Source of the DNA: Streptomyces sp. NBC_01267
Lineage (GTDB): Bacteria; Actinomycetota; Actinomycetes; Streptomycetales; Streptomycetaceae
Length of the DNA stretch: 64,000 bases
Assembly: GCF_036241575.1 (NCBI RefSeq)
Contig: NZ_CP108455.1
Span: 6,617,001-6,681,000 of the forward strand
Direction: 5' to 3'
The number at the start of each line of letters is the position of its first letter. Position 1 is the stretch's first letter. The notes under the pieces are model-generated. The model was not told where the DNA came from. It did not search any database and saw only the letters and a list, made by a program, of their open reading frames with translations. Of this stretch, positions 28,030 through 61,950 are shown one piece after another. A program made the translations under genes and the position numbers.

Positions 28030-31000
28030 TTAGCAAACTCCGCCGTAGGAGCCTGCGCTGGCATTACCTGAGCCGCAGAATACCGTATTGGAAATCGCGT
28101 TGACGCTCATGTTGCCGTATGTGGTGCCCCAGTCGATTGCCCCACCTGGGCTATCAGTTGATGTCCAACTCCTGGAGCCCCCGCCGACGCCGCGGGTGCC
28201 CGGCACCTTCGTACGGTACGCACGTGGGAGGCGGGCGATCGCGTTTCCTCGATAAGCGGCACCCCAGCTTCTGGCGCCGCCGGCCAGTCTGCCGTAGACG
28301 GCTGCGCTGCCGCCGCCAACGGCTGTCCAGGCGAGGTCTTTCGACAACGCGGCAACGTCCCAGTTTCCGGTTCCGATACCGTCTCCGAGGAATTTAGCAG
28401 CGGCTATTCCGGCTCCCACAGCGATGCAGGTACCGGCGCTTGCGACGATGCACACTCCAAAGCCGACGATTGCGGAGTAGTTCTTTATGTCATCCCAGTG
28501 ATTGCCTACCCATTGGGCTGCTCCTGTATTTTTTGCGTTCGTCCAGGCGGCACCCCAGTTGCCCTTCATGATGCTTCCGAAGATGCCGTCCTTCTTCCGC
28601 TGTGCCGCCTGGGCAGCCTTTCTCTGGTTCTCTCGTTTGATGGCTTGTGCCTTCTGCCGTGCTGCCTCGGCCTTTCGGCTTTCAGCGGCGTACTTGCGCT
28701 GCTGGGCCTTGGCGTTGCCGTCGTCGATCATGTAGTGGGCGGGGTTGGCCCGGTACGCGGCGTACTTCTTCTGGGACGCCTTGTCCTTTTTCGGGGTCTG
28801 GTTCCAGACCCATTTTCCGTTCTTGTAGGTGTAGCCGGCGTTCATGCCGCGTTCGGCTGCCCAGCGGTCGTCGGACGACTGGCCGCCGTCGGTGGGGCCG
28901 AGGGGACGCAGGCCGGTGGGGTCGGACTGGGTGATGGGGTTGTTGTGGGCGTAGGAGTAGGCGTTCATCTGGGCTGGTTCGTCCGTGTCGATGACGGGGT
29001 CGACGGAGAGGAAGCGGCCGAGGGTGGGGTCGTACTCGCGTGCGCCGAGGTGGGTGAGGCCGGTGGGGTCGTTGGTGCCGCCCACGAAGCCTCGGGTACC
29101 GGGGAGGGTTTCGCTCTCCTCGGAGCGGAGCTGGCCGAAGGGGAGTTGCTTGCGGCGGGTGATGGCCAGGGTGCCGGCTGCGATGGCAGCTGTTGCCGTG
29201 CCCTGGTGGTCGTTGATGAGGTAGGAGAAGCCCTTGCTGGTGCGTACGGCCACGGTCTCGTCGCCGTGGCTGTAGTAGCGGGTGGCGTCCTTGACGCCCG
29301 CCGCGGTGACGGTGAGCTGGTTGTTCCCGGGCAGGTTCAGGGTCGTACTGCCGTCGGCTTCGTGGGTCAGGAGCCGGTCGCCGTCGGCGTCGTAGAGGTA
29401 GTCGGTGCTCTTGCCGTTCTCGGTGAGGGACTTGAGGTGTCCCTCGTCGTCCCAGGCGAGCTTCTGCTGTCTGTCGGCGAGGGTGCGGTCGGTGGTGTTG
29501 CCGGCCTTGTCGTAGCCGAAGGTGCTCTTCTTGCCGTCGTCGGCGCCGCCCTTGACGGCAGCGGTCTGCACCGCGTGCGGGAGCGGCTTGCCCGCGGCGG
29601 GCTGGGTGTAGGTGGTCGTGCTGTCGGCGCCCGCGAGGACCCCGGTGCCGTGGTCGGTCTGCTTGGTGCGGTTACCCAGGGCGTCGTAGGTGAAGCTCTG
29701 CCAGTAGGCGGAGGGTCCGCCGACGCCGGCCGCGGACGGCTTGGCCGTACAGTCCTTGGTCGCCGTCCAGGCTTCGGTCAGGCGGCCGAGGGCGTCCTGG
29801 GTGAAGCACTGGGTGTCCACGGTGCGGGCGGCGTCCTGCCCGGAGGCAGTGGTCAGCCCGGTGATGTTCCCGTCGTCGTCGTAGCTCCAGGTGGAGTCGT
29901 CGATGCGCTGGGGTGCCAGATCACGGTCCGTGGTCTGCCGGGTGAGTCGGCCGGTCTGCAGGTCGTAGGCGCGGCTGCGGTAGACCTTCTTGCCGAGGGC
30001 GCCGTACTCGGTGCGGGTGGGGCGCGACCACACGTCGTAGACGCTGTTCCCGACGAGGATCACCGCTCCCGCGGTGCTCTTGAGCGGCAGGTTGCCCGGT
30101 CCGTAGACCGTGGTGACACGTTCGCCGGGGAGGTTGCCGACAGCGGGCTGCTTCAGCCATTCCTGCTGGCCGGTGTACTTGTTGTAGCCGAAGGTCCAGT
30201 CGTAGGTCCCGGCGACGCTTCCGGCTCCGGACGGGATCGTGACGCTGCTCGCGGTGGGCTCGTAGGCGTCGTTGTAGGCGGTGACGGCGCTGGTGTACTC
30301 CGCTCCGTCCACGTAGCGGGTGCTGGTGGCGGGCTGCCCCTTGGCGACGGTGTCGTAGGTGTGGGCGGTGAGGGTGGTGCTCCCCTTCTTGACGGCCGTC
30401 TCGCGCCCGAGTTCGTCGTAGGTGGTGGTCAGCGTGGTCCCGCGGGCGTCGGTGACCGTCGCCGCACGGCCGAGCTTGTCGTACGTGGTGGTCGTGGGGC
30501 CCTTGTCGGGGTCATCGGTGCTGACCTGCTGGCCACGGGCGTCGAAGGTCCAGGTCCAGGTGTTGCCGGACGGGTCGGTGACCTTCACCGGCTCGCCGTA
30601 CTTGCCGTAGGTGTATGCCGTCTTCTGCGACGCGGTGCGTGCGGCGTCGGTGTACTCCAGGAGTTCGCTGGTGCGGCCCAGTGCGTCGGTGACCGTCGTG
30701 GTCGCCGTCCCGCCCGCCGGCGGGATGACGGTGGTGCGGTCACCGGCGTACTCGGTGCGGGTGCGCCGGGTCTCGTCCCCGTAGGTGCGGGCGACCGCGG
30801 CCGTCACACGGCTCATCCCGTCGTACACGTTCTCCGTCATGGACGGAATCTTGTTGTCCGGTGCGCTGGTGAGCACCGTCGACGGGGCGCCCTCCGCGTA
30901 GTAGGAGTCGTAGGTCTTCCAGGCGTTGCCCCGGGTGTCGTAGAGCGTCTCGGTGACCAGGCGGTCCTTCGTACCCAGCGCCGGGGCCTGGGTCTCGCGC

Positions 31001-47535: not shown

Positions 47536-49215
47536 ATGGCGTCGACCAATGCGACGGAGGAGTTCCGGTCCGCACGGGATTTCCTGCTCCGGAACCGCGA
47601 GGAGTACCGCACGGCCTACGAGGGCTTCAGCTGGCCGCGGCCCGAGCATTTCAACTGGGCGCTCGAATGGTTCGACGTCATCGCACGGGACAACGACCGG
47701 ACCGCGCTGCACATCGTCGAGGAGGACGGCACCGGGAGCAAGGTCTCGTTCGCCGAGATGTCCAGGCGGTCCGACCGCGCGGCGAACTGGCTGCGGGCCC
47801 GGGGCGTCCGGCCGGGCGACCGCATCCTCGTCATGCTCGGCAACCAGCAGGAACTGTGGGAGACGGCGCTGGCCGCGATGAAGCTGCGCGCCGTCGTCAT
47901 CCCGGCGACCCCGCTGCTCGGGCCCGTCGATCTGCGCGACCGGATCGACCGCGGCCGGGCCCGCCATGTGCTCGTACGGTCCGAGGACACCGCCAAGTTC
48001 GCCGGTGTGGAGGGCACTTACACCCGGATCGCGGTCGGTGACGACGTCCCGGCGGGCTGGCTGTCGTACGCGGACGCCGCCGACGCCTCCGCCGACTTCG
48101 AGCCCGACGGACCCACCGGCGCCGACGATCCGCTGATGCTGTACTTCACCTCCGGGACGACCGCCCGGCCCAAACTGGTCGAGCACACCCACACGTCCTA
48201 CCCGGTCGGCCACCTGGCGACGATGTACTGGATCGGTCTGCGGCCCGGCGACGTCCACCTCAACATCTCCTCGCCCGGCTGGGCCAAGCACGCCTGGTCG
48301 AACCTCTTCGCGCCGTGGAACGCCGAGGCGACGGTGTTCATCCACAACTACACCCGCTTCGACCCCACCCGGCTGATGGCCGAGATGGACCGGGTGGGGG
48401 TGACGTCCTTCTGCGCGCCGCCGACCGTCTGGCGGATGCTGATCCAGGCCGACCTCGGTCAGCTGCGGACCCCGCCGCGCGAGGTCGCAGCCGCGGGCGA
48501 GCCGCTCAACCCGGAGGTCATCGAGACGGTGCGGCGCGAGTGGGGGGTGACGATCCGCGACGGCTTCGGGCAGACCGAGACCGCCGTCCAGGTCGCCAAC
48601 TCCCCCGGGCAGCTGCTCAAAGCGGGCTCCATGGGCCGTCCGACACCCGGGTACAAGGTCGAACTGCTCGACCCGGTCACCGGGGAGCCCGGGGCGAGCG
48701 AAGGGGAGATCTCGCTCGATCTCGCCGCGCGTCCGGTCGGACTGATGACGGGCTACTGGGGCGAGCCGGAGCGGACCGCCGAGGCGATGGCCGGTGGTTA
48801 CTACCGCACCGGGGACATCGGCTCGCGCGACGCCGACGGCTACATCACCTACATCGGCCGGTCCGACGACGTCTTCAAGGCGTCCGACTACAAGATCTCG
48901 CCGTTCGAGCTGGAGAGCGCCCTCCTGGAGCACGAGGCCGTGGCGGAGGCCGCGGTCGTCCCGGCGCCCGATCCGCTGCGGCTCGCCGTGCCGAAGGCGT
49001 ACGTCGTACTCGCCGAGGGCTGGGAGCCCGGACCCGACGTGGCGAAGCTGCTCTTCGCGCACTCACGCGCGGTGCTCGCCCCGTACAAGCGGATCCGGCG
49101 GATCGAGTTCGGCGAACTGCCCAAGACGGTCTCCGGGAAGATCCGCAGGATCGAACTGCGCGAGGCGACAGCGGCGGGCTCCCCGGCGGAGTACCTGGAA
49201 GGGGACCTGAGGTGA
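47536..49215 (+). CDS. AMP-dependent acyl-CoA synthetase
   Basis: 559 residues. ATP-binding P-loop LYFTSGTTARPK near 197-208, the YRTGDI region near 422 and the C-terminal catalytic Lys in PKTVSGKIRR near 535. It activates a carboxylic acid through an acyl-adenylate to the CoA thioester. It is related to medium-chain and acetyl-CoA synthetase-like enzymes. GAGGAG lies five bases before the ATG. The stop overlaps the start of the next ligase gene by GTGA. Confidence 0.9.
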   Translation: MASTNATEEFRSARDFLLRNREEYRTAYEGFSWPRPEHFNWALEWFDVIARDNDRTALHIVEEDGTGSKVSFAEMSRRSDRAANWLRARGVRPGDRILVMLGNQQELWETALAAMKLRAVVIPATPLLGPVDLRDRIDRGRARHVLVRSEDTAKFAGVEGTYTRIAVGDDVPAGWLSYADAADASADFEPDGPTGADDPLMLYFTSGTTARPKLVEHTHTSYPVGHLATMYWIGLRPGDVHLNISSPGWAKHAWSNLFAPWNAEATVFIHNYTRFDPTRLMAEMDRVGVTSFCAPPTVWRMLIQADLGQLRTPPREVAAAGEPLNPEVIETVRREWGVTIRDGFGQTETAVQVANSPGQLLKAGSMGRPTPGYKVELLDPVTGEPGASEGEISLDLAARPVGLMTGYWGEPERTAEAMAGGYYRTGDIGSRDADGYITYIGRSDDVFKASDYKISPFELESALLEHEAVAEAAVVPAPDPLRLAVPKAYVVLAEGWEPGPDVAKLLFAHSRAVLAPYKRIRRIEFGELPKTVSGKIRRIELREATAAGSPAEYLEGDLR

Positions 49216-49922
49216 CGCTCGCCTACGAGCACGGGACCGGCTCGACCCCGCTCCTCGGCGACACGATCGGCGGCAACCTCGACCGCACGATCGCCGCCTT
49301 TCCCGGGCGCGAGGCACTGGTCGACGTGGTGTCCGGGCGGCGCTGGACCTACCGTCAGTTCGGCGCGGCGGTGGACGAACTGGCCCGGGGACTTCTCGGT
49401 ACCGGCGTCGGCAAGGGCGACCGGGTCGGCATCTGGGCGGTCAACTGCCCCGAGTGGGTGCTCGTCCAGTACGCCACCGCCCGCATCGGCGCGATCATGG
49501 TGAACATCAACCCGGCCTACCGCTCCCACGAGCTGGAGTTCGTCCTGAAGCAGGCCGGCATCACGCTGCTCGTCGCGTCGCAGCGGCACAAGGGGAGCGA
49601 CTACCGGGCCCTGGTCGACGAGGTGCGCGGCAACTGCCCCGAGCTGCGGTCCGTGCACTACATCGGCGACGCCTCCTGGGGCGAACTGACCGCCGCCGCC
49701 CGGCCGGAGCCGCTCGAAGCGCAGCTCTCCGGCGTCCGGCTCTCCTGCGACGAGCCGATCAACATCCAGTACACCTCGGGCACCACCGGATTCCCGAAGG
49801 GCGCCACCCTCTCCCACCACAACATCCTCAACAACGGTTACTTCGTCGGCGAGTTGGTGGGGTACTCGGAGAAGGACCGGATCTGTCTGCCGGTCCCCTT
49901 CTACCACTGCTTGGATACGTGA
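49212..49922 (+). pseudogene. Acyl-CoA ligase (FadD-like), 5' part only, disrupted by prophage integration
   Basis: 236 codons of a gene normally about 540 long. The P-loop YTSGTTGFPKG is present. The frame runs normally to VPFYHC, the start of the family motif FYHCFGM, then leaves the family and stops after three phage-derived codons (L-D-T). The C-terminal catalytic half must be at the other prophage end. If made, the fragment keeps the N-domain but lacks the C-terminal lysine and would be inactive. Confidence 0.92.
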
Positions 49923-49945
49923 ACACCTATGCAATCAAGGCTCGG
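49881..49945. other. attL junction of the prophage
   Basis: Host coding sequence ends and phage sequence begins around TACCACTGCTT (49902-49912). As I recall, the phage R4 attB and attP share a core GAAGCAGTGGTA, and the reverse complement here reads AAGCAGTGGTA. The host half (reverse GTAGAAGGGGACCGGCAGAC) closely resembles R4 attB, while the phage half (CACGTATCC) does not resemble R4 attP. Serine integrases leave a 2-bp crossover, so exact limits need the attR side. Confidence 0.75.
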
Positions 49946-49963
49946 GGCCGCATACTTGCCAGT

Positions 49964-51517
49964 GTGAGCAATGGGGAAGAGCTGCCGCCCGAGCAGCTGA
50001 TGGACATCTACGCCCGCAAGTCCGTCAAGATCGAGGGACGTCGTGGGGACCTGTCGCCGGCCATGCAGGAGGGTCGGGGACGCGACTGGGGGGAGTGGCA
50101 AGGGCTCACTGTACGCAGGGTGTGGGCCGACAAGCTGAGCGCGTCGAAGAACATCAAGCGCCCCGACTATGACCGGGCGCTTTTGGCGTTGGCGAATGGG
50201 GAGATCAAGACACTGTGGTGTTACAAGCTCGACCGGTTCAGTCGAAAAGGCGCTCTCGCGGTCCTGTCTGTCCTTGAGGGGCTGAACGGCGGGCGGATCA
50301 TTTTCGGAGAAGACGGCCTGGACTCGTCGGACCCGAACCATCGTCGAATGATCATGTGGAAGGCCGAGGACGCCCGAGAGGAATCGGAGCGGATCTCTAA
50401 GCGCGTAACGGACACTAAAACGTCGCAGCGCGACAGGGGCGAATGGGTGTCCGGCCGAGTCCCTTACGGGCTCGTGGCCGACGAGGACCGGAAGCTGATC
50501 CCAGATACATCCAGGGCTCATCCCGAGCACCCCAACAAGGGCAGCAAGGCGACCATCGCAAAGCGTATTTTCGAACGCGCTGCGGGCGGTAAAACCCTCC
50601 GGGAAATCGCGGCCGAACTGGACAACGAGGGCATCCCGGGGCCTATGGGCGGCTTCTGGAATCCCAACACTATCTACCGACTGCTACACAATCCCGCGCT
50701 GAGCGGGTGGCAGGTGGTGAAGCTGGGCAACGGCCCGGGAACCATCTATACGGACCCCAAGGGGAAGCGAGTTCGCGCAGGTGTGTGCCTGGTATCGGAT
50801 GCGGACAGGGAGCGGGCCACCCGGACAATTGCCGGGCACCAGAAGCCGGACAAGACCACGTCAGGCACGGCCCGGGGGCGGCGCCATCATCTGCTGACGG
50901 ACCTGACGGAGTGCGCCACGTGCGGACGCTCCGCGCCTATGTCCAGCCGCTCCTATGCCTGCATGTCGACGCAAGGGCACAGGTGCGCAGCTCCTGCGTC
51001 GGCGTACGCTCCGCCCCTGGAACGGTTCGTCAGGGACCAGTGGCTCAACCAGCTGACCAACTCCGACCCAGAGGACCCGCTACTAGTGGTGGTGGCTCAG
51101 CGCTGGGGGGTGCTCACACAGCCCGAGGAGACGGCGGAAATCGAAGAGGCTCGTGCGTCACTGGCAGCCGCTGAGAGCCAAATGGAGCGACTCTTGAGAG
51201 ACCGTCGCAAGGGGCTCTACGAAGGCCCCGCAGCACGGTTCTTCGAGCCGGCGTGGGACGACGTCAACCGGGACATGCAGGAAGCCAGGACGCTGCTCAA
51301 GGGCGTGGGAGGTGTCGCGGTAGATATCAGCTTCCTGCTTGACCACCACACCGCCATGGAGGCATGGGAGGCGGCTGACATCCCGCTACGGCGCGAGCTG
51401 CTGCGGCTGGCTATAGATCGCATCAAGATCAACAAGGTAACGACCGTCTCAAAGCGTGGCGAGTTCAACGGGTTTGATCGCGTGGACATCCGATGGGCCA
51501 CTGTGAGCGAGGTCTGA
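49964..51517 (+). CDS. Large serine recombinase (phage integrase)
   Basis: 517 residues. Catalytic domain with nucleophile Ser20 in IYARKS, then LWCYKLDRFSRKG and the helix E region. Recombinase domain with YRLLHNPALSG. Zinc ribbon CATCGRS ... YACMS ... RCAAP, coiled coil (about 410-450) and a C-terminal segment. It catalyses attP x attB integration without host factors. GTG at 49964 is preferred because it keeps the N-terminus short; GTG at 49919, almost on the att core, and ATG at 50000 are alternatives. No strong ribosome site is seen, so a leaderless message is possible. No excision factor was found nearby. Confidence 0.93.
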   Translation: MSNGEELPPEQLMDIYARKSVKIEGRRGDLSPAMQEGRGRDWGEWQGLTVRRVWADKLSASKNIKRPDYDRALLALANGEIKTLWCYKLDRFSRKGALAVLSVLEGLNGGRIIFGEDGLDSSDPNHRRMIMWKAEDAREESERISKRVTDTKTSQRDRGEWVSGRVPYGLVADEDRKLIPDTSRAHPEHPNKGSKATIAKRIFERAAGGKTLREIAAELDNEGIPGPMGGFWNPNTIYRLLHNPALSGWQVVKLGNGPGTIYTDPKGKRVRAGVCLVSDADRERATRTIAGHQKPDKTTSGTARGRRHHLLTDLTECATCGRSAPMSSRSYACMSTQGHRCAAPASAYAPPLERFVRDQWLNQLTNSDPEDPLLVVVAQRWGVLTQPEETAEIEEARASLAAAESQMERLLRDRRKGLYEGPAARFFEPAWDDVNRDMQEARTLLKGVGGVAVDISFLLDHHTAMEAWEAADIPLRRELLRLAIDRIKINKVTTVSKRGEFNGFDRVDIRWATVSEV

Positions 51518-51614
51518 CAGGTAACGATCCGGTAACCACAGGAAGGCGCCAGGAGCCCGTTCCACGTCGCCCCGAGCCTCCTCCGCCCATCTCGCGGGAG
51601 CCGCCCACCTGCTG

Positions 51615-51642
51615 AGTTATCCACAGGCGCCTGTGGATAACT
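51615..51642. repeat. 28-bp perfect palindrome with two DnaA boxes
   Basis: Left arm AGTTATCCACAGGC, right arm its exact complement GCCTGTGGATAACT, no spacer. Each arm contains TTATCCACA, the consensus DnaA box, in opposite orientations. It lies 98 bases after the integrase stop. Confidence 0.9.
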
Positions 51643-51702
51643 ACAGACCGTGTGTGAACGGTGAGTAGTTGTACCTCTGCGTAGCTGACTAGCAGCAGTA
51701 CC

Positions 51703-51795
51703 GTGCAGAAATGCAGAACTGGACCCTATTTTCTAAACCCCTTAGAGACTCTCTAGAGGGTTTAGAAAATAGGGTCCAGTTCTGCATTTCTGCAC
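51703..51795. repeat. 93-nt near-perfect inverted repeat
   Basis: The left arm 51703-51740 starts GTGCAGAAATGCAGAACTGG. The right arm 51758-51795 is its exact complement over 38 bases. The 17-base centre can continue the stem (TAGAGA with TCTCTA around a single C) with one mismatch and one wobble. No target duplication flanks it. Such length is unusual for a phage terminator. Confidence 0.92.
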
Positions 51796-51882
51796 ACGGC
51801 CCAGCGGAGGGCGGAGGCAGGCTGACGAGGAGCTGAAAAGTCGCATCTGACATTTACCCCCCTGCCGACCCATAACTGTAGT

Positions 51883-51916
51883 AGAGGGTTTTACGCGCAC
51901 GCGCGCGAGACCCTCT
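51883..51916. terminator. Small hairpin
   Basis: AGAGGGT at 51883-51889 pairs with ACCCTCT at 51910-51916 around an alternating CG-rich loop. Possible terminator. Confidence 0.4.
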
Positions 51917-51917
51917 C

Positions 51918-51983
51918 GCCGGCGTCGCTCCCTCGTGCTCCCCGTACTCTCCTCCGGGTCGAGCCAGGTTGAGCGACGCCGGC
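51918..51983. repeat. 13-bp inverted repeat, 40-base spacer
   Basis: GCCGGCGTCGCTC (51918-51930) and GAGCGACGCCGGC (51971-51983) are exact complements. The spacing suits two operator half-sites or a large hairpin. Confidence 0.75.
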
Positions 51984-52115
51984 CCCTTCAACCAGTAGGG
52001 CGGGTGGACGGATTCCGGCGACTAGCGCGGAGCCTGGCCTGCCCTACTTGCAGACTTGTAGCGGCACGATATGAGCTGGGCCGCGCAGCCGGGTAGTGGA
52101 TGAGCCCCGGCACAC

Positions 52116-52197
52116 GCGTTGGGCGCTGGGACGCAACGGGGGCTGTAAACCCCTGGTCGGGGCACCGACTTGACCGGTTCGATTCCGGGACGACGCA
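52116..52197 (+). tRNA. tRNA-Tyr(GTA)-like
   Basis: 82 nt. Anticodon arm GGGGG-CTGTAAA-CCCCT reads GTA. A perfect 5-bp long variable arm (GTCGG/CCGAC) is as expected for bacterial tRNA-Tyr. The T loop is TTCGATT with a 4-bp stem plus one mismatch. The acceptor pairs at six of seven positions. The D arm is short and U8 is missing, so it may be degenerate. Confidence 0.5.
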
Positions 52198-52239
52198 CGA
52201 CGTGCACCTACGGGGCTTCCTGGGGCTACGGTGCGCTCC

Positions 52240-52283
52240 CCCTTGGCTAGGCCGGTTTCACACCCGGCTGTTGATGCCAAGGG
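52240..52283. repeat. Two-part stem-loop between tRNA-like genes
   Basis: CCCTTGGC (52240-52247) pairs with GCCAAGGG (52276-52283). Inside, GCCGG and CCGGC pair around an 8-base loop. It may be a processing signal, terminator or decayed tRNA remnant. Confidence 0.55.
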
Positions 52284-52364
52284 TGTAAAGCCCTGGTGGA
52301 CCGCTCAGCGAGAGCGACGACGGACACAGTTCGTATGCCAGCTCGCTGATGTCGCCAGGGCCAT

Positions 52365-52436
52365 GGCTAGGTAGCTCAGCGGTAGAGCGCCGGTTTCATA
52401 CGCCGGAGGGCGGTGGTTCGAATCCATCCCTTGCCA
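52365..52436 (+). tRNA. tRNA-Met(CAT)
   Basis: 72 nt. D arm GCTC/GAGC, anticodon arm CCGGT-TTCATAC-GCCGG with CAT, T arm GGTGG-TTCGAAT-CCATC, acceptor GGCTAGG/CCTTGCC with one U-U mismatch. The G1-C72 pair suggests an elongator (or lysidine tRNA-Ile2) rather than the initiator. Confidence 0.88.
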
Positions 52437-52441
52437 CCCGC

Positions 52442-52525
52442 GCATCACGCGGTATGAGGCAGTACACGCGCGCCGAAGAACGCACCCGGCGGTGTAATCG
52501 CAGGTTCGAATCCTGCCGTGATGCA
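52442..52525 (+). other. tRNA-like element with an abnormal anticodon-position loop
   Basis: Perfect 8-bp acceptor-like stem GCATCACG/CGTGATGC, perfect T arm GCAGG-TTCGAAT-CCTGC and a 3-bp D-like arm (GTA/TAC) with GG in the loop. Where the anticodon arm should be, CGCCG/CGGCG encloses an 11-base loop AAGAACGCACC with no U at all, so no ordinary anticodon can be read. The 8-bp acceptor recalls tRNA-His. Confidence 0.6.
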
Positions 52526-52528
52526 CGA

Positions 52529-52603
52529 CGGGATATGGCGCAGCTTGGACAGCGCATCCGCTTTGGGAGCGGAGGGCCGCAGGTTCGAATCCTGCTATCC
52601 CGA
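52529..52603 (+). tRNA. tRNA-Pro(TGG)
   Basis: 75 nt with a complete cloverleaf: acceptor CGGGATA/TATCCCG, D stem GCGC/GCGC, anticodon arm TCCGC-TTTGGGA-GCGGA with TGG, T arm GCAGG-TTCGAAT-CCTGC. Confidence 0.95.
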
Positions 52604-52611
52604 CACAGACA

Positions 52612-61707: not shown

Positions 61708-61950
61708 GTGGCCAAGCTACGAGCCCATGTCCATGTGAAGGACAGCGCGGGCCAGATCCACGTGTTCGGCCCTGACGACGAGGTGCCCGAGTGGGCACAG
61801 GGCGAGATCACACACCCGATGGCGTGGGAGGGTGGCGAGCTGCCTACCGTAAGGCGCCTTACGGACCCCGACCCCGCCAAGAAGGCTCCCGCGAAGCGCG
61901 CGGCTCCACGCCGGAAGGCGGTGGGCGATGGCGCTGCTGGTGCAGAGTGA
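61708..61950 (+). CDS. Hypothetical head protein, 80 aa
   Basis: GTG start. A short beta-type N-terminus (AHVHVKDSAGQIHVFGPDDEV) and a Lys/Ala-rich tail (PAKKAPAKRAAPRRK). Small proteins like this lie between capsid and connector genes in many actinophages. It overlaps the next gene by 23 bases. Role unknown. Confidence 0.7.
   Translation: MAKLRAHVHVKDSAGQIHVFGPDDEVPEWAQGEITHPMAWEGGELPTVRRLTDPDPAKKAPAKRAAPRRKAVGDGAAGAE

Follow-up and report, generated by a model that had tools for sequence, protein, structure and literature searches.

What is a 93-nt inverted repeat, paired almost from end to end, doing beside the integrase gene of a Streptomyces prophage? The repeat lies in a 64,000-nt stretch of the genome of Streptomyces sp. 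NBC_01267 (NZ_CP108455.1, positions 6,617,001 to 6,681,000; below, the window), between a serine integrase gene and a cluster of phage tRNA genes (Table 1). Its arms (positions 51703 to 51748 and 51750 to 51795) are 46 nt each and 96% complementary around a 1-base center, and the stem consists, from the outside inward, of 38 perfect pairs, 2 mismatches, and 6 pairs. When positions 51690 to 51810 are folded as RNA, the energy is -80.5 kcal/mol, compared with -30.1 ± 3.5 kcal/mol for 200 shuffled sequences, none of which equals it (z = -14.4). The element contains 49% G+C, versus 65% in its 1-kb flanks, and no direct repeat of 3 to 11 bases was found flanking it. A first-pass annotation of the window, made from the sequence alone, had described 38-bp perfect arms with about 46 bp of pairing in AT-rich DNA, next to an integrase, near a DnaA-box palindrome and without a flanking duplication. 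Each of these observations holds, the integrase through its PHROG 95 match and the palindrome at the position given in Table 1. Four roles had also been offered: a cruciform at a replication origin, a two-way transcription barrier, a small RNA precursor, and a miniature inverted-repeat transposable element (MITE). The first is now the best supported, the second is a live rival, and the last two fare poorly.

The hairpin is one of a pair. A search of the same genome located a second copy (copy B, at G000:C1:6697273-6697365, which is L005:16273-16365) 28.6 kb downstream of the first (copy A), in the same prophage and beyond the window. The two copies differ at 2 left-arm positions, and because the right arm carries the complementary change in each case (TATTTT/AAAATA versus CTTTTT/AAAAAG), pairing is kept. 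Copy B lies between a phage exonuclease gene (PHROG 298) and a gene related to a putative repressor. The latter gene matches the putative immunity repressor of Streptomyces phage Samy at 44% over 248 amino acids and gave no hit in Pfam or PHROG. In the order of phage genes, A and B stand at either end of the early region.

Two such elements were found in 23 of the 24 phage or prophage sequences that were read at both sites (Streptomyces, Arthrobacter, and Microbacterium, with phiC31 included), A usually following the integrase gene and B usually preceding the exonuclease gene. Samy (OR263580), the closest named phage, carries both at the same places and in the same gene order, but with different iterons (the short direct repeats of the arms, described below); its annotation marks neither element and draws a hypothetical open reading frame, SAMYPH_33, across copy B. 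Both elements are also present in nine further Samy-like prophages in other genomes and, outside the Samy-like clade, in Attoomi, phiC31, phiBT1, Shaeky, prophage G129, the Arthrobacter phages Yang, Liebe, and KeAlii, and the Microbacterium phages Honk, Mabodamaca, Eula, and Bachaco. Eula and Bachaco have no annotated integrase, and their copies lie at other gene boundaries. No recognizable element was found in R4 (seven intergenic stretches within the first 50,000 of its 51,071 bases), whose annotation lists a DnaB-like helicase and separate primases.

The search with the exonuclease matched 46 of 392 genomes, of which 11, the window's included, were read at both sites. Site B carries a strong long hairpin in 33 of the best 80 of 272 IMG/VR loci retrieved with the exonuclease; when 21 of the loci without one were inspected, an element was recognized by eye in 9 (long hairpins missed by the stem finder in L136 and L137, and inverted short repeats in 7). 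The finder likewise missed several elements that were recognized by reading or by self-comparison (Attoomi B, G360 A, G129 A, KeAlii A, Mabodamaca A, Eula B, and both sites of phiC31, phiBT1, and Shaeky), and phiC31, phiBT1, and several distant loci have a weak inner stem. In a scan of 42 loci it gave a family hairpin in 19; the misses L023, L026, L031, and L033 carry diverged elements on reading, and 19 distant loci (L034 and L036 to L053) lay outside the reading.

Element sequences are almost wholly different between phage groups. Searched for as DNA, the hairpin was found among 100 relatives only in the window's own genome and, among 392 genomes of the genus, in this genome, as a diverged element in G360, and as a spacer of a clustered regularly interspaced short palindromic repeat (CRISPR) array in G397. 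It was not found in phage records or plasmids (apart from one chance-level plasmid hit), and no exact 20-mer of it occurs in viral or genome contigs. A pattern scan of genome contigs also gave matches outside the actinobacteria (Tepidibacter, Moraxella, and others). The open-access literature searched, which lacked the phiC31 papers that we sought, yielded no description of the paired elements, and we met in it no report of a replication origin for phiC31-type phages.

The two copies within a phage resemble each other. In the 11 Samy-like phages, mean identity between A and B is 0.88 within a genome versus 0.74 between genomes (permutation p = 5e-5), and between genomes A-A identity is 0.73 and B-B identity 0.74. 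In G218 the copies are identical over 118 bp; in G360 they are only 0.70 alike. We propose that A and B share sequence because the same protein reads both, because the copies gene-convert each other, or for both reasons.

Pairing is conserved as well. In an alignment of 38 Samy-like elements (alignment A2, from which we excluded L115, in which no element was found, and any row over 97% identical to another row), both partners have changed without loss of pairing in 13 of 22 consensus pairs. The proportion of pairing cells is 90.4%, versus 84.0% after shuffling and at most 63% on sliding. Arms that diverge in related phages without compensatory changes had been named beforehand as evidence against selection for structure, and the alignment gives the opposite picture. 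Compensation of this kind can arise from selection or from self-correction of a palindrome.

The arms also contain iterons. In the prophage studied here the repeat is TGCAGAA; the corresponding repeats are GCCAAAGTG in Samy, GTGACGAA in KeAlii, GGGGACG in Honk, and AGGGCGGTT in Eula. The best left-arm repeat has a period of 8 or 9 in 32 of 42 rows, and direct repeats reach p ≤ 0.05 against shuffled arms in 31 of 42 rows, compared with 12 of 105 control windows, a count in which the G218 row enters twice, the left and right arms depend on each other, and a few rows have their best repeat in the inner stem. In Eula, a third iteron cluster (L222:27076-27098) lies just upstream of the primase/helicase gene, which would fit autoregulation by an initiator. 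A stretch resembling this cluster is seen by eye before the primase gene of Bachaco (L224, about 28105 to 28130). The elements are lower in G+C than their flanks in every row (0.41 to 0.62 versus 0.61 to 0.73).

Upstream of A, in turn, lie copies of TTATCCACA, which we take to be a DnaA box. The 11 Samy-like sequences (52 to 76 kb each, some host DNA included) contain 9 exact boxes, distributed over 7 genomes, and all 9 are at one fixed distance upstream of A (53 to 55 or 68 to 70 nt before the element frame). Samy has a one-mismatch box at the fixed place, which brings the Samy-like sequences with a box to 8 of 11. The block containing the boxes is the most conserved part of the 130 bp upstream of A among the 11 relatives. 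No DnaA boxes were found at copy B in these phages.

The replication protein encoded in these genomes is consistent with a site of this type. The primase of the prophage (L006:9384-11843) scores above the cut-off for TIGR01613 ("phage/plasmid primase, P4 family"), and so do those of phiC31, Eula, and Honk (4 of 4 phages examined), and Toprim and D5_N domains are present in all three of Samy, Yang, and phiC31. Replication of phage P4 requires two cis sites, ori1 and crr. The likeness to the P4 replicon consists of the C-terminal domain of the P4-family primase, the presence of short repeats, and the number of cis sites, two; we know of no description of the P4 sites as long hairpins, unlike the elements described here. 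A published precedent for an origin of this shape is the plasmid pRN1, whose origin is a 100-bp stem-loop of low sequence conservation that is replicated by a primase-superfamily 3 (SF3) helicase; the same paper states that a similar stem-loop occurs in phage BIP-1 and that the P4 alpha protein binds origin repeats through a winged helix (PMC4234260). As in the pRN1 family, the phage elements are stem-loops of about 100 bp in a replicon with a primase and an SF3 helicase, and their structure is kept while the sequence diverges. The pRN1 element, as described, differs in being present in one copy, downstream of the Rep gene, without iterons and with an archaeal-type primase, whereas the phage elements are two, contain iterons, and accompany a Toprim-type primase (PMC4234260).

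Our favored reading, for and against which we find the case evenly balanced, is that the hairpin would be one half of a bipartite cis element, composed of iterons and a stem-loop, for phage DNA replication. Of the roles offered at the outset, the origin cruciform is the one that the fixed-distance DnaA boxes, the iterons, the P4-family primase, and the stem-loop precedent favor. The P4-family primase-helicase (Toprim plus D5_N) would bind the iterons in both arms, melt or extrude the symmetric core, and prime synthesis there. In most Samy-like phages, opening at copy A might be aided by host DnaA bound to the fixed-distance box pair, and copy B would serve as the partner site, in the manner of crr and ori1 in P4. 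In the Samy-like clade the element may double as a transcription barrier.

Several observations weigh against this reading. Both elements lie directly upstream of promoter-like motifs, which is not required of origins, and 12 of the 21 site-B loci inspected because a strong hairpin was lacking have no recognizable element. TTATCCACA is missing upstream of A in 3 of the 11 Samy-like sequences (G346, G226, and G360) and upstream of the elements in all 10 phages scanned from other clades, and TTGTCCACA, the consensus DnaA box of Streptomyces, has 5 occurrences in 4 of these 11 sequences, none of them within 300 nt of A. A third iteron cluster near the primase gene is not above chance in the other 20 phages scanned, and there is no switch of GC skew at the elements. 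Finally, the primase of this prophage is not a divergence outlier overall, only slightly one near its C terminus, and does not clearly track the divergence of the hairpin.

A further point against an origin is also a point for the strongest rival, that the element is a transcription barrier. If the plus strand acted as RNA, G-U mismatches should exceed A-C mismatches. Counted per sequence, they do so in the Samy-like set (70 versus 42, p = 0.01, uncorrected for relatedness), but as distinct events they are nearly equal (30 versus 29), and 18 elements of other groups give 24 versus 26 per sequence. A first strand count (62 versus 37) was dropped, as it did not survive counting of distinct events. 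Strand-biased mutation could shift such counts, and the mismatch pattern leans toward a DNA site rather than RNA. A small RNA precursor gains no positive support here, with no strand preference in distinct events and an Rfam scan of the hairpin whose only hits, microRNA look-alikes, fell short of the gathering score.

As a barrier, the element would form a long RNA hairpin (a terminator without a U-tract, or an RNase III site) that keeps transcription from running on from one operon into the next around the circular phage genome, at B, for example, from the repressor gene to the early genes. Its position between operons fits this role, and terminators lacking poly-U tails have reportedly been described in the early region of phiC31 (Ingham et al., 1995). 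When a lenient rule is applied, only 1 of 27 Samy-like site-B loci has a terminator apart from the element, versus 33 of 53 in other clades. In an initial count, strong hairpins appeared to replace terminators (3 of 33 versus 28 of 47, p = 5e-6); we do not use this value, because the effect disappeared within the non-Samy group once the loci were split by clade. There, 6 of 10 loci with strong hairpins and 27 of 43 with weak ones have a separate terminator (p = 1), and the terminator contrast is therefore one between clades only. In addition, phiC31, phiBT1, Attoomi, and KeAlii have separate terminator-like hairpins beside the element. The window copy does not resemble an intrinsic terminator either: no U-tract or terminator-like site was found in positions 51500 to 52100, and the stem is long and 49% G+C. 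Since a strong hairpin makes no difference to terminators in the other clades, a barrier function is possible in the Samy-like clade, but it does not explain the family as a whole, and it leaves the near-identical copies, the iterons, and the DnaA boxes unaccounted for. As the main function, we regard a barrier as a minority possibility.

Less probable still, and in our view unlikely, is that the element regulates the two main phage promoters from upstream, as an operator, an enhancer, or an Lsr2-type silencing site to which a regulator of the phage or the host binds. The AT-richer DNA of the elements would suit such a site. In Samy-like loci the motif CTGACAT-N12/13-GACCCATAAC, or a relative with up to 5 mismatches, lies 37 to 77 nt past element B and was recognized by eye past element A; Arthrobacter phages have a different motif (TGAGCA...) common to both sites. 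At two further occurrences of the motif within the prophage (L006 4657 and 15304), a CCGTAAGGCGCCTTACGG palindrome lies upstream, where A and B have the hairpin instead. However, the motif also occurs at three other places in this prophage without a hairpin, and the distance from hairpin to promoter varies. The sigma factor of this prophage is the most diverged of 11, but by a small margin (0.42 versus 0.48). The hairpin does not contain the recurrent CCGTAAGGCGCCTTACGG palindrome, which is found at 8 other places. No sigma-70 consensus match was found in positions 51500 to 52100. A fixed-spacing promoter pattern missed copies of the motif because the spacer varies, and a scan of viral contigs for the motif gave three matches, all unrelated.

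A mobile, MITE-like palindrome or a homologous joint for module exchange between phages is very improbable: near-identical direct copies do bound a 28-kb module (and are identical in G218, as described above), but the elements occupy equivalent positions with unlike sequences in phages of different hosts, no third full copy was found in the 21 phages scanned (short matches only), the window copy has no flanking duplication, and the DNA search of 392 genomes of the genus found the element itself in only 2, the present genome and G360, besides the G397 spacer.

Extending the reading of the pair as a replication origin beyond this locus, we tentatively suggest, with less conviction, that the super-group of actinobacterial phages sharing the phiC31 replication module may have a two-site, concertedly evolving cruciform/iteron origin, with A using host DnaA in some phages and B as partner, that also divides the genome into transcription domains. 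If so, the start of replication and the boundaries of transcription would be the same DNA. A co-evolving pair recognizable in nearly all the genomes read would be a direct candidate for the origin of phiC31-type phages, which are the source of widely used integrases, and would show in nature how DNA sites far apart can evolve in step.

Table 1. Features of the window in and around hairpin copy A
Feature	Position in window	Strand	Basis or remark
Serine integrase gene	49946..51517	+	PHROG 95; predicted start; open frame runs in from host gene
28-bp perfect palindrome of two inverted TTATCCACA boxes	51615..51642	no strand	Most conserved block upstream of A; found in 8 of 11 relatives
Hairpin/inverted-repeat element, copy A	51703..51795	no strand	Inverted-repeat search and RNA fold
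Left arm, outer part: short direct repeats	51703..51726	+	TGCAGAA twice, 8 apart, mirrored in right arm
Phage promoter-like motif CTGACAT-N13-GACCCATAAC	51847..51876	+	51 nt after hairpin; four more copies in prophage
Conserved stem after site-A promoter-like motif	51918..51983	+	Alignment of relatives

The open frame of the integrase runs on from the 5' part of a host gene at window positions 48315 to 49946, presumably one for an AMP-dependent acyl-CoA synthetase, and because of this continuity the prophage probably sits inside that gene. On the other side of the hairpin, the phage tRNA cluster identified by ARAGORN (window positions 52116 to 52604) comprises two clear genes (Met and Pro) and two unusual calls: for one, a tRNA-Tyr, no Rfam match exceeded the gathering score, and the other was called with a four-base anticodon. 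Between hairpin and tRNA genes, the conserved stem of Table 1 (in the region of positions 51899 to 51988) has CTCTCCTCCGGG in its apical part and compensated changes in 10 of 16 pairs among 13 aligned phages (phiC31 aligns poorly). The stem may be a late leader RNA, for instance a site of antitermination.

The CCGTAAGGCGCCTTACGG palindrome recurs at L005:18795, at L006:4607, 11763, 15198, 16305, 17317, and 18920, and at about position 61846 of the window, and these sites are perhaps operators of the prophage repressor. phiC31 and phiBT1 have a different short recurrent palindrome, CTACTCACGTGAGTAG, which is separate from their long A and B elements. The CRISPR array in G397, a strain of the same species, has 22 repeats and 21 spacers. 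One of its spacers (L010:1501-1533) agrees with hairpin B at all 30 of 30 bases and with hairpin A at all 23 of 23; a second one matches 18 to 21 bases of the CCGTAAGGCGCCTTACGG palindrome.
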